28,669 bases of DNA from a virus, in IMG/VR virus record IMGVR_UViG_3300032287_001729, positions 1 through 28,669 of that record; one strand, 5' to 3'. Within the stretch, counting starts at the first letter, position 1, and each line of letters begins with the position of its first letter. The notes under the pieces are model-generated. The model had not been told where the DNA came from, did no database searches, and saw only the letters and a program-made list of their open reading frames with translations. Shown piece by piece: positions 2,157-18,544 of the stretch. A program made the position numbers and the translations under genes.

Positions 2157-4685
2157 CTAGTCGAGTACAGGCTGTAGAGCGTCAAGTTCCATCAGGTCAA
2201 ACAATGTCGGAGCCGTCAGTTCACGCTCCGCCCGTTCGCAAAACGCGACGCCAAATTTCCAGTAATCGGGATTCAGTTCGATGCCCCAACCCTTTCGCCC
2301 CATCTTGACCGCTTGGTATGGCGTTGAGTGGATGCCGCCGAACGGATCGAGGATGACATCTCCCTTGTTGCTGTAGCGTTCAATCAATCGCTCGATGACG
2401 TCTAGCTGTAAGGGGCAAACATGGTTTTCGGTAGTCTTGCGACTCAACTCCGTGTTCAATGTCTTGATGCGGATAATGTCCGTCCAGATGTCTTGATTGT
2501 TCGACACTGGAGCGAACAGCATCATCGACGCCGGTAGCCGTCCAACCTGCTCCACCGCTTCGGTGAACGCTACGTGGTCTTCGTAGTTGTATCGATGCTG
2601 CTTCGCGTATGCTCTCCACCAGTGATAGACCTCTGACGTGGTCATCGTTTGCAGCATTGCCGGGCTTGCAAGCTCGTTGCCGCTTGACCGCCAGATACCG
2701 CTAGCGTGAATCTGCCAACGTGACCTTGAGTATTCCGCCTTGGCTTTAACCACTGGATCCGGCCCGTTCGCAGTTTGGTTCGGACTCATCGACGGATCGA
2801 ACTTGCGAAACAACAAAACGAACTCAGTCGAACCGCAACCCATCTTGGATGAGTCTTTGCTGTTCTCGGTGTGCCCCAATCGGTACGTCTGTGCATTCTC
2901 TCGCACGACGTCTGTATCTATGACAATGCGTCCCATGTAGATAAAGCCATGCTGCTTGAAAGCTGCTACGGTCTTATCGCTGAACTCGTTGACGCTGTAC
3001 ATTGCGTTACCCGTCATCGTTCCGTACTGGATGCGGTCTTTTGTGTGGATGCAAGCAACTCGACCATCTTTAAGCACCCGAAGCAACTCAGGTACTAAGA
3101 AGTCGAACTGCTTGAAGAATCCGTCATCGCCTTGATTGTGTCCGAAGTCATTTAGGTTCGGACTGTATTCGTAGTGATCGGAAAACGGGATCGACGTAAC
3201 AACCTGATCGACGCAACCATCAGGCCATGTCTTTAACTCAGCAACGCAATCATTATTGATCGCTCGATACAGTTCGCCGCTAACCTCAACCCGTGGAACA
3301 CCTAGCCCGCGCTGAAACTTCATCTTTAACATATCTCCTGAAAGGCCGTTTTCTCTTATGATTTCCCGCATGCGTTGCGAGAGTTCGTTATGTCGCTCCC
3401 ATTTCTTCCGCATGATCAACACCGTGTCGAATTGCGTCGAAGCGTAAACAATATGAACCTGAACCGTCTTAGTCTGCATGAACCGCTGGATGCGGTGAAC
3501 CGCTTGGATGAAGTCGTTGAACTTATCCGTCGGCCCGATGAACACCGCCCGATTGCAATGCCGCTGAAAGTTGCAACCGCTTCCAAGCAGTTCCGGCTTA
3601 CTGCTTAGAATCTGCAGCCTGCCGTCCGCGAAGTCGCTAACGATCTGTTCACGCTCTTCTAGCTCTTGCGAGCCGTAGACCGCTTTGCTGTGTGGGATCG
3701 CTTTTTGGATCGCTTCGCGTTCGCTTTCAAGGTAATGCCAGACTAGCCAATGCTCATCAGATTCGGCGTTGACAATCTCGACCATCTTATCAATGCGAGC
3801 ATCTTTGGTTTTCCTTCGCTGCTTTGCGACGTGCTTAATACCGCCGCCGGTTTGCTCAAAGAGAAGCGGATTACCGCGACTATCCACGCATGATCCAGCC
3901 TCCCCCAGTTCGCCCGGCACTTCGTGCCAATGCACTTCCAATTCAGGCATCGAGTACCCCGCATCATCGAATCCTAAGTCGCTCGGTGAATTAACGAACG
4001 CCGCCCACGATGCAACCCAAAGCCAAAAGCGTTGCGTTTCATGCGGATACAACTGAAGGTTTCCAGCCTTCTTGCTATCGCGTTGAAAAAATCGCGTCAT
4101 CGCTTGCCCTCGATCCATTACGCCTAGGAAGTCGGCGTAGTTAATCAACTCGATGAAGTCGTTAGGCGATGGAGTAGCAGTCGCCACGAATCGATACTGA
4201 ACGTTTCGAAAGAGCATTGCGAACTGTTGCGTTGTCTTCGTTCCGTAGGATCGCAAGCAACTAGCTTCATCAAGCATCGCGCCAGCGAACCGCTTTGGAT
4301 CAATCTGACCGTCTCGCACTCGCTCATAGTTCGTGATGATGTAGGGACTATCGCAAGCATCAACCTCGGCATCCGTGCGACAATAAACGACCTTCATTCC
4401 CATTCGTGGCCCGTCATTCTTGGTGAACTCTTGGCGAACGCCTAAAGGGGCGACGAATAGAACTTTCCCGCTAGTCTTTTCGTGTATCCACTTGCCAATC
4501 TGTAATTGCTGTACAGTCTTGCCTAAACCGAAAGCCTCAAACAATGCCGCGCGACCTTTTCGGATAGCCCAATCGACGCATACGACCTGATGCGGCTTGA
4601 ACCACTCAGGGCAAGGTGACTCAGGCTCAAAGCCCTCATCCGCAACTACCGGTGCTTTCGACCGTATAAACTCTTCGTAGTCCAT
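2157..4685 (-). CDS. SNF2-like helicase fused to beta-class DNA methyltransferase
   Basis: This 842-residue fusion has two enzyme halves. Residues about 30-420 are an SNF2/SF2 helicase: GLGKT 53-57 (Walker A), DEAS 139-142 (Walker B), ATATPSPND about 168-176 (motif III), and HRIQRF about 397-402 in the C-terminal helicase lobe. Residues about 460-842 are an amino-methyltransferase: TSIPF (498-501 is SIPF) as motif IV, a motif X-like stretch ending QLDVIERLIER, then DPFGG 780-784 with GIELNPDYW as motifs I-II. The order IV-X-I is that of beta-class N6-adenine/N4-cytosine enzymes. Motif IV normally reads [DNS]-P-P-[YFW]; here the first proline is isoleucine. ATG at 4685 follows GGAGG with nine-base spacing; a TTG at 4694 sits directly against GGAGG and was rejected. 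No nuclease domain is visible. Roles in epigenetic masking, replication or anti-restriction are possible; I cannot choose. Confidence 0.85.
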   Translation of the reverse strand: MDYEEFIRSKAPVVADEGFEPESPCPEWFKPHQVVCVDWAIRKGRAALFEAFGLGKTVQQLQIGKWIHEKTSGKVLFVAPLGVRQEFTKNDGPRMGMKVVYCRTDAEVDACDSPYIITNYERVRDGQIDPKRFAGAMLDEASCLRSYGTKTTQQFAMLFRNVQYRFVATATPSPNDFIELINYADFLGVMDRGQAMTRFFQRDSKKAGNLQLYPHETQRFWLWVASWAAFVNSPSDLGFDDAGYSMPELEVHWHEVPGELGEAGSCVDSRGNPLLFEQTGGGIKHVAKQRRKTKDARIDKMVEIVNAESDEHWLVWHYLESEREAIQKAIPHSKAVYGSQELEEREQIVSDFADGRLQILSSKPELLGSGCNFQRHCNRAVFIGPTDKFNDFIQAVHRIQRFMQTKTVQVHIVYASTQFDTVLIMRKKWERHNELSQRMREIIRENGLSGDMLKMKFQRGLGVPRVEVSGELYRAINNDCVAELKTWPDGCVDQVVTSIPFSDHYEYSPNLNDFGHNQGDDGFFKQFDFLVPELLRVLKDGRVACIHTKDRIQYGTMTGNAMYSVNEFSDKTVAAFKQHGFIYMGRIVIDTDVVRENAQTYRLGHTENSKDSSKMGCGSTEFVLLFRKFDPSMSPNQTANGPDPVVKAKAEYSRSRWQIHASGIWRSSGNELASPAMLQTMTTSEVYHWWRAYAKQHRYNYEDHVAFTEAVEQVGRLPASMMLFAPVSNNQDIWTDIIRIKTLNTELSRKTTENHVCPLQLDVIERLIERYSNKGDVILDPFGGIHSTPYQAVKMGRKGWGIELNPDYWKFGVAFCERAERELTAPTLFDLMELDALQPVLD

Positions 4686-4884
4686 CTCTGTCAACCTCCG
4701 TTACGCCAACTCCCTCAGAGCAACCGTTGCCCCTTTGCTTGTCGGCTGTTAATACTTCAATCTCCCTCAGTAACTCGATTATCATTGCCGAGAGTGTACC
4801 GCTAGTGCCAGTCCAGCAATTCGCTGGCCCGAAGCGTCTAGCGTGTTGTTCAATCTCAATCAATCTTTCACGGCTTATGGGCAT
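4636..4884 (-). CDS. Small hypothetical protein, 82 aa
   Basis: I do not recognise this protein. The N-terminal 45 residues look like a compact helical domain (helices around RERLIEIEQHARR and MIIELLREIEVL, with a Cys-Trp turn between). The C-terminal third is Gly/Thr-rich and overlaps the helicase-methyltransferase gene by 50 bases. ATG at 4884 has GGAGGGG five bases upstream; the alternative GTG at 4890 is too close to it. The gene starts inside the end of the preceding one, so it is part of the early operon. The helix pattern resembles small phage ead/Ea22-like proteins, but this is a resemblance only. Confidence 0.65.
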   Translation of the reverse strand: MPISRERLIEIEQHARRFGPANCWTGTSGTLSAMIIELLREIEVLTADKQRGNGCSEGVGVTEVDRDGLRRVYTVESTGSCG

Positions 4885-7339: not shown

Positions 7340-8431
7340 CTACACCCTCGCCATTGGCATAATAACCCCTAAAACGTCACCGGAAGTAAGCACAACCGGA
7401 TCGCCTGATTGCTTGTATCGAACTTCGACCGTTTGCTCCTTGCCGAGCGAACGAAGGAAGTCGGCAAGATACGTGTGATCTACGGTTAACTTCGCTGGCT
7501 CATCCGCCTCGCACCCCATCACAACGCTAGATGCTCCAACCTCGGCGGTCTTTGCAGTCGCAGTTAGTTCGCCGCTACTGATAACGAGGTCAATGCCTCT
7601 GGAGTCTTGATCGTTGACGATTGCCGCTTGACGTACCACGCTCAAGAACTTCTCCGCATCGCACCGAAGCGTAGATGCTCCGTCTGTCGATGGCACAACC
7701 TTCCGCCAGTCTGGATAGCGACCTTCGACCAATCGCGTCTGTAGCGATATGTCACCGCATATAAACACCGCTGACCGATTGTCGATCATTACGTCAACTC
7801 CGCATCCCTCAGCGGCGATGATGCGGCTAACGGCCTGTAGTGGGCGAATAGGCACAATCCCGCTGACCGCTGCAACTTGCCCCGCAATCTGACAGGATGA
7901 GACGGCAAGCCTACGCCCGTCAGTAGCAACGCAAGTAAGACGCTCGCCAAGGTCGAAGTAAACGCCGCCGAGTTGATACCGCGTCGATGCTAAGTCAGTT
8001 GCGTAGATCGTTTGACGGATCGCATCAGACAACGCAACGCCCGGTACGCCTGCCGCTCCTTCTGCCGCGTCAATCTTGACGGATGGAAACTCATCGGGAT
8101 TCGGCATTGAGAGCGTGAACCCGCCCGATTGCGTTGTGATCCGCAATTGCGTATCTACCTCGATATCCACCGAATCCCCGCCGCAATCCTTAAGGATGGG
8201 GATTACCTTCGAGGGAAGTAACAACGCTTTGCCCGGACTCGAAACATATTGCACCGCATCGGCGACATTGCAAACAATTGAAAGTTCGTTGTCAGTTGCT
8301 TGCATGTTCTTCGCGTCGTCGCAAGTAAACTTCACGTAACGCAAAACTTCGCTTTGCGGCTTGCTGCCGACAATCGATGCCGCGATTTCGAGCGACTTCA
8401 AAAACGGTAATCTCTGGACTGTGACTTTCAT
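7340..8431 (-). CDS. dnaN: DNA polymerase III beta subunit (sliding clamp)
   Basis: At 363 residues this has the full length of a bacterial beta clamp, which encircles DNA as a dimer and tethers polymerase and other partners. It contains the expected features: an N-terminal strand-helix (VTVQRLPFLKSLEIAASIV), LSMPNPDEFPSV near residues 105-116, YQLGGVYFDL in the middle domain with LTCVATDGRRLAV next, and a C-terminus ending VIMPMARV, matching the hydrophobic P-M-R end of the family. ATG at 8431 is preceded by GGAGG. Phage-encoded clamps of bacterial type are uncommon and suggest the phage either brings its own processivity factor for a host-like polymerase or uses it as a platform. No polymerase is seen in this window. 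Confidence 0.93.
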   Translation of the reverse strand: MKVTVQRLPFLKSLEIAASIVGSKPQSEVLRYVKFTCDDAKNMQATDNELSIVCNVADAVQYVSSPGKALLLPSKVIPILKDCGGDSVDIEVDTQLRITTQSGGFTLSMPNPDEFPSVKIDAAEGAAGVPGVALSDAIRQTIYATDLASTRYQLGGVYFDLGERLTCVATDGRRLAVSSCQIAGQVAAVSGIVPIRPLQAVSRIIAAEGCGVDVMIDNRSAVFICGDISLQTRLVEGRYPDWRKVVPSTDGASTLRCDAEKFLSVVRQAAIVNDQDSRGIDLVISSGELTATAKTAEVGASSVVMGCEADEPAKLTVDHTYLADFLRSLGKEQTVEVRYKQSGDPVVLTSGDVLGVIMPMARV

Positions 8432-12410: not shown

Positions 12411-12719
12411 TTATTCCGCTGAAACGATTTTTTCGTAAACTCGATACGCGTTTGAGTACTCAAGACCCCAAAGCGGCCCGTGTTGTTGCGTGTTTTCCCA
12501 CTCGATCCAGCTTGCGGCATGGGCTATTTCGTGGATCAAAGTATCGAGTTGCTCTTGCTCAGTGAGACTCGAAGATATCTTGATTGCGAAGTGATCCGGC
12601 ATCCGCTTGCAGTAGCCGCAAACCTTGCTTGATACTCGGCACCTACGCACCGAGATGGACAGCGTAGGGTGTTCCGCTTTGAGTGCGTCACGTAGTTCGC
12701 AAAATAGGTCTTTGCCCAT
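12411..12719 (-). CDS. SprT-like zinc metalloprotease, 102 aa
   Basis: This short SprT-like protein has the zinc motif HEIAH at residues 63-67 within LDTLIHEIAHAASW, and a third ligand candidate at H80 in QQHGPLWGLEY. It also has an N-terminal C-x-x-C pair (CGYC, residues 34-37), not typical of the catalytic core. Family members include SprT and the DNA-protein-crosslink protease Spartan; phage versions are common but uncharacterised. It starts at 12719, four bases after the phosphoesterase stop, and is the last gene of the late block, followed by the 150-base promoter region. The role here could be cleaving a host or virion protein. Confidence 0.75.
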   Translation of the reverse strand: MGKDLFCELRDALKAEHPTLSISVRRCRVSSKVCGYCKRMPDHFAIKISSSLTEQEQLDTLIHEIAHAASWIEWENTQQHGPLWGLEYSNAYRVYEKIVSAE

Positions 12720-12723
12720 TTTG

Positions 12724-13596
12724 TTACTTCGCTCGCATGTGATCGAAAAGCACTCGGTCGTTTTTATTATCCCAGTAAAACCTCAACCAATGCGAGCCGA
12801 GAGACTTCGGCCCTAGCATCCGCTCAACTTCCCAACCGTGATCGCCATCGCCCCAAGCGTCTTTGTACCCTGGGCACCTAATGTGCAATTGCTCATCGTG
12901 ATAAACATTGCCATGTATTGACAATCGCTGCCTTGGTATAGTCAACGACCACTCATCGTGAGTATGCCCGGTCAAGACGATCTCTGGATCCGGTGTCATC
13001 ACCGCGATGCGGTTTGTTTGGATCGTGCCCCGCGTTACCGGCCCACCTCCGCCCGTCCCGTGGAAGTGATAGAGCGTCACAGAGTCTTTAGCACTCCTGC
13101 TGCCCTCACCAACGCGAAAGCGAAAGATAACCCACCCGCCGTATCCGCTCGCTTCCGTGATGCCGCTATGTGCCCTTAATCGCCCCGCTAGCCGATCCGT
13201 CAAGTCGGTTTCATGTGCTTTAGTGATCGCGGTTTCGTGATTACCGCGTCCCATTACCGCGAAAATATCTTTGTAGGGCTTGTAGTATTCGTAGGCCGTA
13301 TCTACTAGCAAGTCGAAGTAGTTACTGCCTTGATGCTCCGGCCTTAATGCTGACTTATCTGCCCGCTTATCCCATCGCCCTTGCATCGCACAAAACAGAT
13401 CGCCGTTGTCGACGACTGGAGCATTAACGGCTAGTGCTTCGTCGAGGTGTTTACGCTCTAGGGCTTGATCGCACTTGGGGTTGTCGTGGTGCACGTCCGA
13501 CCGCAATAGCACCCACTGCTCCCAGTCTTTATTCTTTGTCAACTCGCAATTGATCTCGATTACATTGCGTTGTAGTTTGTTGAGTCTCCAGCCCAT
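12724..13596 (-). CDS. Calcineurin-like metallophosphoesterase, 290 aa
   Basis: All the metal-site motifs of the calcineurin-like phosphoesterase fold are present: D34-x-H36 (SDVHHDNP), G-D66 (NGDLF), GNHE 118-121, H177/H179 (YHFHG) and GHTH 210-213. The expected activity is two-metal hydrolysis of a phosphomonoester or phosphodiester; the substrate is unknown. ATG at 13596 has GGAGG at seven-base spacing, so the 68-base overlap with the Erv-like gene is real. Its place between virion-associated genes and SprT is unusual: it might process nucleotides or DNA ends, or act at the cell surface. Confidence 0.85.
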   Translation of the reverse strand: MGWRLNKLQRNVIEINCELTKNKDWEQWVLLRSDVHHDNPKCDQALERKHLDEALAVNAPVVDNGDLFCAMQGRWDKRADKSALRPEHQGSNYFDLLVDTAYEYYKPYKDIFAVMGRGNHETAITKAHETDLTDRLAGRLRAHSGITEASGYGGWVIFRFRVGEGSRSAKDSVTLYHFHGTGGGGPVTRGTIQTNRIAVMTPDPEIVLTGHTHDEWSLTIPRQRLSIHGNVYHDEQLHIRCPGYKDAWGDGDHGWEVERMLGPKSLGSHWLRFYWDNKNDRVLFDHMRAK

Positions 13597-13969
13597 CGTT
13601 CCGCCTCCAAATTGCTAGTGCATCTTCCACGGTCAACTCAGCTTTGCCAAGTTTGCGGTTTACCCAGTTATGTAAGTTGTAGCCCCAAAGCCAATAGGCA
13701 TCGGGCGATGAGAAGTCGGGAGGGTTGTCGGCTTTGTATTCGGCATAGTCTTTACGACAAGAGCAGCCGTAGTTGGGGATCGTCAATTCCCACTCAGCAT
13801 GCCAAACAGGATCGCATCCGTCGTAAGCGTGCAAGGCTAGCCATGCGTTAGGCAGTGGCGTGATCGTAAAGGATGCGTACGTTATCCGCTTGCCACCTAG
13901 AGCAATCTGCTTGCCTTTGTTGCGTTCGCAAGCCAACTTGCCTAGGTCTGGATTGCTTCGGTCGAGCAT
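13529..13969 (-). CDS. Erv/ALR-like thiol oxidoreductase candidate with CxC, 146 aa
   Basis: The C-terminal half resembles the Erv1/ALR sulfhydryl oxidase fold. An N-terminal AWLALH (42-47) compares with W-x-x-L-H in ALR helix 1. Then come PNYGCSCRKDYAEY (65-78) with the pair C69-x-C71, NPPDFSS (82-88), and LHNWVNRKLGK (99-109), which matches the FAD-contacting HNxVNxxLxK motif. Erv enzymes use CxxC to make disulfides; here only one residue separates the cysteines and the helix-1 to cysteine spacing is about nine residues shorter, so the activity may differ or be lost. ATG at 13969 overlaps the stop of the 35-cysteine protein as TAATG, giving direct translational coupling. A frame start at 14008 is rejected. 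Family by motif only; partner assignment is inference. Confidence 0.6.
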   Translation of the reverse strand: MLDRSNPDLGKLACERNKGKQIALGGKRITYASFTITPLPNAWLALHAYDGCDPVWHAEWELTIPNYGCSCRKDYAEYKADNPPDFSSPDAYWLWGYNLHNWVNRKLGKAELTVEDALAIWRRNDGLETQQTTTQCNRDQLRVDKE

Positions 13970-15333
13970 TACGCAAACTCCAAGGTAACCGTAGGCACCG
14001 GAAAGCAAACATCGCCCGCCGTGAAGTGGCTAGTTGTAATTGAGCAGGTGAGGTCGCGTAAGTCACGCTGGCAACTTCCTTGCAGGTCAATGCAGTTATT
14101 GGCTATAGGCATCCCGTTATCGTCGAAGCGGAAGCAGCATCCGGTAGATCCCTCAACCTCGCAAAACTCTTCCAGTGGCGGATCGCCACCGCCTAGGCAA
14201 TAGTCGTTGAGCGTTCCGCACATTGAAGGGTTACCGAAGATTCTATCCGGGTCGTTTTCCGATACGAAGTAGTCAAAGCCTGGATACTCCTGCAAGCAGT
14301 TGGGAGTAAATGGAGCATCCTGGACAAAGTTGCAAGGCCCGTCGATGAAATAGGCTTGAGTCATCACAAGTACAGCTTCATCCTTTGGGAGAATCGAAAA
14401 GCACCCGGTTGAATCTCCAAAGCCCGGATTAGACCTGTCGTCTTGCATTCCAAAGTAACAAATATCCTCGAATTGCCCATCAAACTGAGGCAACGCTGGT
14501 AAGCACCTATCACTTGCCGCCGTATCGCTCAAACCGCATGGCACAACGACAAAAGTGCAATTCGTCTTCCCAGTGCAACAACTATTCGGCAATGAATCGG
14601 CATTGGTAAGCGATACCGCTTCAGTTGGCAACGTGTCATAAAACTTGATCCGTGTGAATGATCCAATGTCTAGTTCCGCCGTTGCTGGATTGACTACAAG
14701 CCCTTCTGGGCAGTTATCGCTGTCGGTGCCCTCTTCCTCTGTCCAATTGTTCGTATAGGAGCATATTCCGTTGCGATAGACACCCGTGCAAGCGTTGTCT
14801 ATTTTCTTGTAGACGTAAGCGTTTGAAATGTCCTCAAGGATTGAGTAGTAATAGGTCGTCGCAACGAAGAATCTGCAAACCGGCTCCGCGTCTTCATCGC
14901 ACTTTGTTAACGCTTTGCCTACCGTAATTCTCAAGCGAATTAAATCGTACTGTGCGAGATAGTAGATTCTGATCTTTCCATCAAACGAGACTTGCTTCGT
15001 TTGGTACTTGATGCAATCGCAAACGGGCGTTGTTGGCGGAGTCGTTCGATTGATAAAGTCAGTTTGCGTTTTGTAGAAGTCGGCGGTATACGAAAACGAG
15101 TAATTGCGACGCGCCCACAAGTCGCAAACGTTCGTTGCTGTCTGACAATCCAATTCAAACTCTGCAACGTAGCAACACCCTTGGAGAACCAAAGGTTGAC
15201 TAGGATATGTCGGCGGCTCCGTAACTCCGTTGCAAGTCTCGTAGGGTGCTTTTAGCGTCACCGTTTCCCACGGCATTTCTTCCGCTGTTATGCAACAATC
15301 GCAGCAACACTTGCTTAACTTACTCACGCCCAC
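13969..15333 (-). CDS. Cysteine-rich virion/tail-associated protein, 454 aa
   Basis: The protein has 35 cysteines in 454 residues, starting with CCCDCC at residues 9-14 and including five CC or CCC clusters. A segment near the C-terminus (STGCCFRF...NNCIDLQGSC...DLTC) resembles the cysteine-rich repeats I associate with Planctomycetota surface proteins. The rest is aromatic and acidic with beta-like strands and no membrane segment or signal peptide. It follows the tape measure and two structural proteins, where distal tail or receptor-binding proteins usually lie, so a tail-tip role is inferred. Starts are GTG at 15333 or GTG at 15327; AGGGGG favours the latter. Spacing is three bases after the preceding stop. 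A metal-binding rather than disulfide-bonded protein is the main alternative. Confidence 0.65.
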   Translation of the reverse strand: MGVSKLSKCCCDCCITAEEMPWETVTLKAPYETCNGVTEPPTYPSQPLVLQGCCYVAEFELDCQTATNVCDLWARRNYSFSYTADFYKTQTDFINRTTPPTTPVCDCIKYQTKQVSFDGKIRIYYLAQYDLIRLRITVGKALTKCDEDAEPVCRFFVATTYYYSILEDISNAYVYKKIDNACTGVYRNGICSYTNNWTEEEGTDSDNCPEGLVVNPATAELDIGSFTRIKFYDTLPTEAVSLTNADSLPNSCCTGKTNCTFVVVPCGLSDTAASDRCLPALPQFDGQFEDICYFGMQDDRSNPGFGDSTGCFSILPKDEAVLVMTQAYFIDGPCNFVQDAPFTPNCLQEYPGFDYFVSENDPDRIFGNPSMCGTLNDYCLGGGDPPLEEFCEVEGSTGCCFRFDDNGMPIANNCIDLQGSCQRDLRDLTCSITTSHFTAGDVCFPVPTVTLEFA

Positions 15334-15336
15334 CCC

Positions 15337-15666
15337 CTAGCAAATTTCCACCGCTGAGAATTTATTACCGATGCGAAACAACTTCAAATAGGCACCGTTT
15401 GCAATCGCTGAACCCATATTGACTAGGTTCACGTCGTAAAGGTCTTCGAGTACGTTTGCATCCGTAATACGTTTCACCTTCGCCGTGCCTGTGCCTAGCG
15501 TCGTACCTGCCCTCGCTGTGATTGTACTCGTTGCGACTGCAATCAAGCAATCCGCCGTTTGTTGCGTAGGATCGCTATTGCCGCCAGTGCTTGACCCACT
15601 GCCAATCATCCGAAGCAGTTCAAGCGAGTCCGCATCGTTAAAAGCGTAGAGAACTTCATCGGGCAT
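15337..15666 (-). CDS. Hypothetical virion-module protein, 109 aa
   Basis: ATG at 15666 overlaps the preceding stop as TAATG and has AAGGA seven bases upstream; an open extension to 15711 is rejected. The N-terminus (MPDEVLYAFNDADSLELLRMI) is a helix, followed by a Gly/Ser/Thr-rich link (GSGSSTGGNS) and beta-like sequence (TITARAGTTLGTGTAKVKRI), the composition of tail spike or adaptor proteins. No family is recognised. It is expressed between the 297-residue and the cysteine-rich proteins. Confidence 0.62.
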   Translation of the reverse strand: MPDEVLYAFNDADSLELLRMIGSGSSTGGNSDPTQQTADCLIAVATSTITARAGTTLGTGTAKVKRITDANVLEDLYDVNLVNMGSAIANGAYLKLFRIGNKFSAVEIC

Positions 15667-16559
15667 TAGGAAGTCCTTATGAATGACGAGAAGCTGATTT
15701 CCTTTTTGCAACGGAAAGTAAGCGTTGCTGGCGTTGACGCTTTTGCTCCGGTCGTGCCGTTCAAGGCTCCGATAATGCCGAACGTGTTCGTATCGTCCAT
15801 GTACCGCTTGAGTTTATTTCCGTCCGCTGCATCGACGTAATAAGGCCCTACGTCCAGTCTTAGCTCATCGTGCTTATCGGGATCGTACGTGACTTTGTAT
15901 TTAACCCGCCAAGCCGCGAATCCTGCGTACGATCCTAACTCCGCTTCGACAACTTCAAGTAGCAAGGTTCTCGCATCGAAGACTTGCCCGATAGCGTCAA
16001 ACGATGATTGATTTACCGTATCGTTTCGATCCAAAAACACCTTGAGTTTTTGCGAAGCGTCTTCAAACTGCACAAATGAGAATTGGCAAAGTGATCGCGT
16101 CTCAGTCAATGGCGAATCGAACGGAGTACCCGCCGAGTTCACAGGCTTCTTGGCCGTTGGCGTAGTTCGATCCTGTACTAAGACTCGCTCCTTGGTAACG
16201 AAAGAGTCAATCTTAAATACTGGAGTCCATGTCGTAGGATCGGGACTATCGGGATTCTCTTGGCTCTGCTTTTGCTCTTCGGTGCCCGTTTGAAACTTTG
16301 CGTCTACTGTCCAGTAGAGAGGGTGCTTTTCGTCACGGTCGGCGGTCAAGTCATCGCACACTAAACCTAGAGGCCCGTATAGCAAGCCAACGCGGGGCAA
16401 GCCTGGAGTCTCAGTAAGTACCGAGAGACGCGAAGTAAACTTATCATCGGTCTTGACGCGAAAGCTCCAAGCCTCACCGAAGACAAGCGAGAAGCCTTGA
16501 CCCTTGCGAACAAATCCGCTGCCCTTGCGTAACTCCGATCCGATTAACTCATTAGCCAT
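15666..16559 (-). CDS. Hypothetical tail-associated structural protein, 297 aa
   Basis: This is an unrecognised beta-rich protein with a strong ribosome site (AGGAGG) and ATG at 16559. The middle (FKIDSFVTKERVLVQDRTTPT) and a long C-terminal part (VVEAELGSYAGFAAWRVKYKVTYD) look like strands. It is the first gene after the tape measure, which in siphoviruses is usually the distal tail protein. The sequence gives no proof of that fold, so this is a positional inference. Confidence 0.6.
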   Translation of the reverse strand: MANELIGSELRKGSGFVRKGQGFSLVFGEAWSFRVKTDDKFTSRLSVLTETPGLPRVGLLYGPLGLVCDDLTADRDEKHPLYWTVDAKFQTGTEEQKQSQENPDSPDPTTWTPVFKIDSFVTKERVLVQDRTTPTAKKPVNSAGTPFDSPLTETRSLCQFSFVQFEDASQKLKVFLDRNDTVNQSSFDAIGQVFDARTLLLEVVEAELGSYAGFAAWRVKYKVTYDPDKHDELRLDVGPYYVDAADGNKLKRYMDDTNTFGIIGALNGTTGAKASTPATLTFRCKKEISFSSFIRTS

Positions 16560-16564
16560 TCGTG

Positions 16565-18544
16565 TTACCTCCTAAAAGCGATTCGCGGTGCATTCTCGGC
16601 CAGTAGCGTTTGCTTCTTGGTTTCCGCTAGCAAGTCCTCGGCAAGTTTCTTCTGCTCTGCTTGCTGCTTGCTCTTTGCGTTCTCTTGCTGCATGAATGTA
16701 AACGCTTCTTTAGTGCCTGCCTTGAGCGTAGGTGCGATGTTCTTGGCGATCTCCTGGCCTACTCCAGCAAACTTATCTGATGCCCCTTGTCGGCTTTGTT
16801 GCTGTGCTTCAAACGCTGACCGTGCAAAGATGGATTGCTCTGCCATCGCTGCCCGCTTGCGTATGCCCTCTTTTTGCTTCTCGTTGTCGCCAGCCTCTGC
16901 GAGTTGCCGCCTGAATGCTTCGTCAAGCGTTGCGTACTCTTTGCGTAACGAGTCGCTAGATAGAAAGTTCTTCTCCTTCATCGCTGCGACTTGCTTCTCT
17001 ACTTCGAGTTGTTTGTTGGCCGCTTCGACGGATGCGTGTATCGCGTTCAGTTCGTTTAGCCGCTTGGTTTCTTCCATGTCCATTAACGCGGCTTGGGCTT
17101 GCATCTTTTCGCCCTCTGTCATCTGAAAAGTGTCGTCGAACAACTTCGCCTTTTCGTAGTTCTCGGCACCCATGCCCGCCTTGCGTCGCTCTTCGCTGAT
17201 CTGGTTGATGCGACTTGCAAACGCCGACCGCTCGCTCTCCATCTTTCGATTGTCAAACTCAATCGCCTCTTTAGATGCCTTAGCGGCTCGTTCCCGCTCG
17301 TCCGCGATCTGCTTAGACAGTCTAGCCCTTTCGCGTTCTTGATCCGCCATTCGCTTCTCTATGCGTTCAGACTCGGCGTAGATTTCTTTTTCTTGTTGCG
17401 TCAACTCCTTCTTTTGCTTCGACGCTTCGACTAGCGAAAGGATGCCATCTAGGGCCTTGTCGACACCCGGCTTAATTTCACGCTCACCAATGGCCGTCAC
17501 GAACTGCTTAAACTCGCTTTGAAGTTTCGACATCTTGACCGATGTGGTCGTTGCCATCTTTTCATTCATGCCGTAAAACAACCCGCCCTTTTTCGTAGCA
17601 TTCTCAAAGGCTGTCGCTACCATCTCGGCACTAATCGCCCCGTCTTCCATCCGCTTGCGTAGCTCTGCCATGCTAACGCCGGTATCCTTGCTGATCTGTT
17701 GCAAGGGATTGAAGCCAGCGTTAACAAGTTGCAAGACTTCCTGCCCTGTCAGTTTCCCTGCGGCTTGCACCTGGCCGAATGCTAACGCCATTGCTTGAAA
17801 GCGTTGAGCATTGCCCATTGATATCTCTGACATGGACTCCATAACCGGCACGACATTGCGTACACTCACGCCGAACTGCATCAACGTCTTGGAAGCGTCT
17901 TGGAAGTCAGTTGCACTCAATGCCGATGCTTGATCCAAGCGGATAAACTCCGCCATCAGTTTTTTGGTAGCCTCTTCCGATTGCGTGAAGACGTTTATCT
18001 GTGCCCTGACTTGCTCGACTTGCATAGCAAGCCCCATAGCATGCTTGCCAAAGTCAGTGAGGCCCTTAACCGCTCCCAGTGCAGCACCTGCGACGGCTAG
18101 ACCGCTTATCGCTGATGTGGCCCTATTGATTGCAACTGGTGCCGATGCTCCAAAACTATTCGTTGCGTCCGATTGTCTTCGGATACCTTCGAGGTACGTT
18201 TGAAAGTTTGCTTGCCTTGCGTCTTCGGCTTGCTTTGCTTTTAGCTTGGTATCCGCCAGCCGCTGCTCTGCCTTTGCTGCGTTCTCGGCATAGGTCGCGG
18301 TCAACCCGTGCTTTTTTGCTAGATTGTCAATGGTTCGATTGTAAGCATCCGCCGTGAGCCCACCTGCCGCAAATGCTCTGTCAAGCAACGCAACATCCTT
18401 CGCCATCTTCTGCATCGGGGTTTCCGATGCTCGCACCGCCCTAGCAATAGAGTTCAATTCGTGGCGTGCAAACTCACCATTCTTCTTGAGTTCCTCAATC
18501 TTTAACCCAATCGAGATGTTAGCGACGTTTACAGTAGTTGCCAT
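16565..18544 (-). CDS. Tail tape measure protein, 659 aa
   Basis: Residues about 170-355 match the tape-measure N-terminal domain (VNAGFNPLQQISKDTGVSM near 274-292 and DGAISAEMVATAFENATKKG at 301-320 are typical). A glycine/alanine hydrophobic stretch at about 147-163 precedes it. A long charged coiled coil runs from about 375 to 560 (KEIYAESERIEKRMADQERE), and the end is Gln/Lys-rich. Known family: this protein sets tail length at roughly 1.5 angstroms per residue, so a tail near 100 nm is a rough inference. ATG at 18544 directly follows the chaperone stop (TAAATG) with AGGAG upstream. No lysozyme or peptidase domain is seen. Confidence 0.88.
   Translation of the reverse strand: MATTVNVANISIGLKIEELKKNGEFARHELNSIARAVRASETPMQKMAKDVALLDRAFAAGGLTADAYNRTIDNLAKKHGLTATYAENAAKAEQRLADTKLKAKQAEDARQANFQTYLEGIRRQSDATNSFGASAPVAINRATSAISGLAVAGAALGAVKGLTDFGKHAMGLAMQVEQVRAQINVFTQSEEATKKLMAEFIRLDQASALSATDFQDASKTLMQFGVSVRNVVPVMESMSEISMGNAQRFQAMALAFGQVQAAGKLTGQEVLQLVNAGFNPLQQISKDTGVSMAELRKRMEDGAISAEMVATAFENATKKGGLFYGMNEKMATTTSVKMSKLQSEFKQFVTAIGEREIKPGVDKALDGILSLVEASKQKKELTQQEKEIYAESERIEKRMADQERERARLSKQIADERERAAKASKEAIEFDNRKMESERSAFASRINQISEERRKAGMGAENYEKAKLFDDTFQMTEGEKMQAQAALMDMEETKRLNELNAIHASVEAANKQLEVEKQVAAMKEKNFLSSDSLRKEYATLDEAFRRQLAEAGDNEKQKEGIRKRAAMAEQSIFARSAFEAQQQSRQGASDKFAGVGQEIAKNIAPTLKAGTKEAFTFMQQENAKSKQQAEQKKLAEDLLAETKKQTLLAENAPRIAFRR

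Follow-up and report, generated by a model that had tools for sequence, protein, structure and literature searches.

The tail module of an uncultured siphophage contains two overlapping genes that appear to encode an obligate oxidase-client pair, in which an Erv-type protein (P0001) would oxidise a cysteine-rich tail-module protein (P0002) in the bacterial cytoplasm; we put the probability of this reading at about 0.74. Bacterial viruses would then probably carry a system of their own for cross-linking a virus-encoded protein within the host cell. The Erv family itself is known, and what is new is an Erv-fold branch in a phage setting, with a CxC spacing and a putative dedicated client. A preliminary description of this DNA had proposed a dedicated oxidoreductase made with its disulfide-rich client, a proposal now supported by the predicted fold of P0001, the conservation of the client cysteines, and complete co-occurrence of the two genes.

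The window, by which we mean the whole 28.7 kb of the uncultured virus record that was analysed, contains a siphophage module on the minus strand, comprising genes for the small and large terminase subunits, portal, Clp-type protease, HK97-type capsid protein and connectors and, in its tail part, a tail completion protein, a tail assembly protein T-like gene and a tape measure protein (16565..18544, minus strand; Pfam TMP_3, E = 1e-26). After the tape measure gene come two unassigned genes encoding 297 and 124 aa (15337..16559, minus strand), which lack a family match and by position are probably tail proteins, then P0002 (13969..15333, minus strand; 454 aa, GTG start), P0001 (13529..13969, minus strand; 146 aa) and a metallophosphoesterase/exonuclease-like gene (12724..13596, minus strand; phrog_7339, E = 1e-11) whose start overlaps the end of P0001. 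Because the tape measure gene lies nearby, we place the P0002/P0001 pair in the siphophage tail module. The junction of the two genes reads GCGTAATGCTC, where the TAA stop of P0002 and the ATG start of P0001 have one base in common (TAATG, 13967..13971, minus strand). On re-reading the sequence, the coordinates, cysteine count, motifs and overlap first noted for the pair all proved correct. Elsewhere in the window, also on the minus strand, are a SprT-like metalloprotease gene (12411-12719; Pfam E = 2.6e-8), which follows the metallophosphoesterase-like gene downstream of the tail module; a gene for an 845-aa protein with SNF2-like helicase and N6/N4 DNA methylase parts joined together (2157-4694); and a phage-encoded DNA polymerase III beta sliding clamp gene (7340-8431).

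P0001 is an Erv-fold protein, judged by homology and predicted fold. It matched Pfam Evr1_Alr (PF04777) above the cut-off (E = 1e-8; 35.8 versus 27.6 bits) as its sole family, the same model was matched by 40 of 40 diverse relatives (alignment A2, E ≤ 0.01), and a profile of the P0001 family retrieved exclusively Erv-family sulfhydryl oxidases from the PDB (best match ALR, E = 6e-10). The Evr1_Alr match of P0001 spans only profile positions 37-90 of 93, so the assignment of its helix-1 half draws on the structural model together with W43 and H47. In the AlphaFold2 model built from alignment A2 (core pLDDT >90), five helices (residues 42-48, 54-61, 71-81, 89-106 and 114-121) recover the Erv/ALR arrangement of a four-helix bundle plus a short fifth helix. 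Foldseek searches with this model gave ALR, Erv1, Erv2, African swine fever virus (ASFV) pB119L and mimivirus R596 as the top 25 matches, with QSOX next after these; the best TM score by target was 0.64 (pB119L), and only Erv/ALR/QSOX folds were among the good PDB matches.

The sequence signature of the FAD pocket was also present. Alignment A2 places WLALH (W43-H47; 13829..13843, minus strand) as the helix-1 motif equivalent to Erv W-x-x-x-H, and HNWVNRKLGK (H100-K109; 13643..13672, minus strand) is the Erv/ALR helix-4 motif HNxVNxxLxK, seen in the sequence and in the Evr1_Alr match. Across the 40 sequences of A2, W43, W60, I64, P65, C69 and C71 were invariant and H47 was retained in 39, W-x-x-x-H lying outside the search pattern. 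One DNA search pattern partly predetermined the conservation of HNxVN and PPD; HNxVN was also present in 50 loci retrieved through the client protein alone. On the Pfam match, the structural model and the profile matches in the PDB, P0001 is a probable FAD-linked thiol oxidase.

The preliminary description had read the 146-residue protein as an Erv/ALR-like thiol protein, from the HNxVNxxLxK and W-x-x-L-H motifs beside a CxC (here CSC). The fold and motifs bear this out, with the qualification that the active-site spacing marks a divergent branch. The cysteine pair C69-S70-C71 (13757..13765, minus strand) stands in for the Erv CxxC, where helix 71-81 begins in the alignment and the AlphaFold2 model; compared with CEEC of ALR there is a gap of one residue, and C71 aligns with the second ALR cysteine. 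CxC in place of the canonical CxxC was invariant across 88 distinct viral sequences (88/88; x = S, D, K, G, Q and others), and we therefore classify the family as a divergent Erv-fold branch and not as a canonical Erv enzyme. In 12 Erv-like proteins the two CxC cysteines are the only cysteines, and the family therefore lacks both a conserved shuttle pair and an obvious metal site. Disulfides of the CxC type are strained and would be expected to be more oxidising than those of CxxC. The spacing also counts against the oxidase reading, since solved Erv homologues have CxxC and an active Erv enzyme with CxC is not known to us.

P0002 contains 35 cysteines in 454 aa (7.7%). This content had been called extreme, and it is so in comparison with the remaining ORFs of ≥200 aa in related contigs (median 1.3% Cys), only 5 of 459 of which reach 4.5%; given so low a background, cysteine content of this kind is not due to chance. 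The gene upstream of the Erv-like gene was the most cysteine-rich ORF in 83 of 83 loci. Within the P0002 family (alignment A3, 24 sequences, mostly 31-43% identical to P0002) cysteines were the most conserved residues, accounting for 29 of the 40 invariant columns. Their number also varied in a regular manner: a non-redundant set (n = 17) had 35, 37, 39 or 43 cysteines, invariably odd, and among nearest-neighbour pairs of a wider set (n = 47) the number was the same in 40 and different in seven, by an even number in six of these. The seventh, odd pair (L065) is an artefact of N-terminal trimming, the full count of L065 being equal to that of L019 (25), and for W, H, M, Y, F, R, K and Q, taken as controls, the pair differences were mostly odd. 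Between P0002 and the 89% identical L004 protein, with columns shifted by three to P0002 numbering, exactly two cysteine columns differ (Y43 and Y175, both Cys in L004). Cysteine numbers that change in twos, together with this double exchange, follow the pattern of disulfide gain and loss, and the conservation and paired change of the P0002 cysteines look like a disulfide signature.

At the N-terminus of P0002 lies a CCCDCC cluster (C9-C14; 15292..15309, minus strand), evident in the sequence and the alignment, and a similar CC-rich N-terminus recurs in the unalignable cysteine-rich partners of L013, L019 and L051. We found no relative of P0002 in Pfam, PHROG or the PDB. Its predicted fold is beta-rich (pTM 0.70), and a fold search with the model returned only improbable matches (probability <0.5, TM <0.25); pore-forming proteins headed this list, but the scores give no support to a pore. 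Hydropathy indicated neither a signal peptide nor a membrane helix in P0001 or P0002, and both proteins should therefore be cytoplasmic. From its cysteine pattern and gene position, P0002 is probably a disulfide-rich tail-tip client.

We assessed the linkage of the two genes in both directions. Starting from the oxidase, a gene of ≥4.5% Cys lay upstream of 83 of 88 distinct CxC Erv domains, nearly always as the immediate neighbour. Of the other five, four were cut by the end of the locus; in the fifth (L088) a 162-aa gene separates the Erv domain from a cysteine-rich ORF that is truncated at the 5' end, and its relative L103 shows the same arrangement with a complete cysteine-rich gene (721 aa, 33 Cys). 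Starting from the client, 61 loci were retrieved with the cysteine-rich alignment only, and all 51 that were long enough had a CxC gene directly downstream (50 complete, one cut inside the domain; the other 10 loci end too early). Co-occurrence was therefore complete both ways among testable loci (83/83 Erv-like genes with enough upstream DNA and 51/51 in reverse), in a sample made up entirely of uncultured viral (IMG/VR) contigs, many of them closely related. A sequencing artefact can be rejected as the source of the pair, which recurs in dozens of assemblies. The TAATG overlap was confirmed and is the same or similar in most relatives, the stop and start of the two genes overlapping or lying at most 8 nt apart; a fixed proportion of client and oxidase, as the preliminary description had proposed, is only suggested by this spacing.

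The link between oxidase and client outlasts replacement of the client. Although 78 of 83 loci have clients from one large cysteine-rich family, the L013 oxidase, which shares 79% identity with P0001 within the matched region, adjoins a partner with 25 Cys that has no BLAST similarity to P0002 or other clients, and the clients of L019, L051, L065 and L079 make up a further distinct group. Erv relatives with CxxC occur in other uncultured phages, mostly beside other cysteine-rich proteins (up to 13% Cys), such as those of L231 (305 aa, 41 Cys) and L218 (315 aa, 38 Cys); no cysteine-rich neighbour was seen for the CxxC relatives of L216 and L217. In L231, L233, L218, L224 and L226 the adjoining proteins are of ~300 aa with 38-41 Cys (12-13%) and at sight are unrelated to the P0002 family. 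A single ORF in L092 (5851-7272) encodes a cysteine-rich domain, a long Ser-rich linker and a CxxC Erv domain.

Other fusions involve different domains. In two further uncultured phages, an Erv domain is joined to Mannosyl_trans3 and GMA12 family glycosyltransferase domains (L120, 10966-13224) and to a GT29 sialyltransferase-like domain (L125, 8240-9649), which suggests that tail proteins may be oxidised and glycosylated together. In L019 (9863-10915), L051, L065, L128 and L152, a CxC Erv domain is followed by a C-terminal domain of ~220 aa without a Pfam match; it has a DxD-like motif (VDADCLIRND in L019) and may be a divergent glycosyltransferase.

PHROG and NCBIfam models covered neither P0001 nor P0002, and a known family from either collection was rejected as the identity of the pair. 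Among isolated phages there was no match to P0001, P0002, or the oxidases of L087, L118 and L141. Scans of 84,980 bacterial and archaeal genomes with the A1 patterns returned no relative, which, with exact DNA matches only, indicates rarity rather than absence; in the same genomes an exact-match scan with the DNA pattern for PPD[FL]-x13-HNxVN gave one match, outside any matching ORF. Evr1_Alr had no match in 296 genomes of the phylum of a Bacteroidetes contig, and control genomes were equally without one. Searches of the open literature did not find a phage Erv system or a paper covering P0001 or P0002.

Could P0001 have kept the Erv fold and lost oxidase activity, acting as a dedicated chaperone, assembly factor or minor virion protein in which CxC is structural or regulatory? 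All members have a shortened version of the canonical CxxC, fusions to other domains occur in some relatives, and linkage alone would fit a chaperone too. We nevertheless regard this as unlikely, since both cysteines, the tryptophan, the histidine and HNxVN are kept while the rest of the protein diverges to ~30% identity, 12 members have just the two cysteines of CxC, and the CxxC relatives also lie mostly beside cysteine-rich proteins, which fits a conserved redox function. Less probable still is that the genes are linked simply by hitch-hiking in a shared conserved tail cassette, without functional dependence. The conserved gene order and the predominance of one client family would be expected in that case, but the linkage persists with unalignable clients (L013, L019 and L051), with CxxC oxidases and as the fused polypeptide of L092, and phages with one gene of the pair were absent among the 51 and 83 testable loci; we consider this explanation very improbable.

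A further possibility concerns the client, which might bind metal or Fe-S clusters, with P0001 adjusting the redox state of the cysteines so that clusters can be loaded, not so that disulfides form. Some known phage tail tips contain metal centres, and the CCCxCC-type clusters at the N-terminus of P0002 would suit such a role. Against it, ~30 cysteines are spread along a beta-rich chain, conserved singly and stepping in number by two, as disulfides would be, and metal-binding families in Pfam, PHROG and the PDB were all without a match to P0002. We judge cluster loading improbable, though less remote than hitch-hiking.

Under the preferred oxidase-client reading, P0001 would be translated right after P0002 and would oxidise it during folding in the reducing bacterial cytoplasm, a compartment generally considered too reducing to allow structural disulfides. 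The CxC would form the active-site disulfide, electrons would pass to FAD and on to oxygen or another acceptor, and P0001 would act on P0002 directly, without a separate shuttle protein, yielding a beta-rich tail-module protein with ~17 disulfides. Among 30 scanned proteins of the window, which is possibly incomplete, Pfam matched no thioredoxin- or glutaredoxin-like, isomerase-like or shuttle protein. The lack of a thioredoxin- or isomerase-like gene counts against this reading, as shuffling of disulfides would be expected to be necessary in a protein with 35 cysteines; a strained CxC may let P0001 act directly or as an isomerase. We speculate that the N-terminal CCCxCC, present even in unalignable clients, is a candidate docking or relay element. 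A more ambitious scheme, which we offer tentatively and think rather doubtful as a whole, is a self-contained phage system for oxidative folding in the bacterial cytoplasm, in which a strained and strongly oxidising CxC Erv-fold flavoenzyme would serve one partner without shuttle or isomerase, the flexible CCCxCC tail would provide electron relay and recognition, and the tail tip would be held by ~17 disulfides; elsewhere, fusion to the client or to glycosyltransferase-like domains would form a wider kit for tail-protein maturation.

A widespread phage pair of this kind would extend the Erv family to bacterial viruses and add a new active-site spacing, and would suggest a compact natural tool for producing disulfide-rich proteins in bacteria. 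It raises two testable questions, namely whether CxC serves as an Erv active site and whether phage tails are locked by disulfides. P0001 resembles Erv1, Erv2 and ALR (PF04777) in its fold, HNxVNxxLxK, the helix-1 W-x-x-x-H and a cysteine pair where the CxxC helix begins, but differs in its CxC, a shorter stretch from helix 1 to the cysteines, and no conserved shuttle disulfide. Erv oxidases have been described as a family of eukaryotes and nucleocytoplasmic large DNA viruses (PMC3509050), whereas the P0001 family occurs in phages of bacteria. In function, the pair comes closest to the Erv enzymes encoded by poxviruses, ASFV, baculoviruses and mimivirus; like ASFV pB119L, poxvirus E10, baculovirus Ac92/P33 and mimivirus R596, P0001 is a small, virus-encoded, Erv-fold protein, although those enzymes have CxxC. 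Compact viral Erv enzymes without a shuttle disulfide are known, and those of eukaryotic viruses often lack it (PMC3509050). They carry out virion-related protein oxidation in a cytoplasm, as we propose for P0001. The poxvirus E10 pathway includes the partner redox proteins A2.5L and G4L (PMC1318495), whereas the P0001 gene is joined to that of one cysteine-rich client, in a host that is presumably bacterial. Recombinant eukaryotic sulfhydryl oxidase, with an isomerase, suffices to produce disulfide-rich proteins in the E. coli cytoplasm (PMC4172947), and this precedent, together with the compact viral enzymes, counts in favour of P0001 as an oxidase. CyDisCo-type expression, with Erv1p in E. 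coli, follows the same principle, in that a sulfhydryl oxidase permits disulfides in the bacterial cytoplasm; CyDisCo is engineered around a eukaryotic enzyme, and P0001/P0002 would be its natural counterpart.
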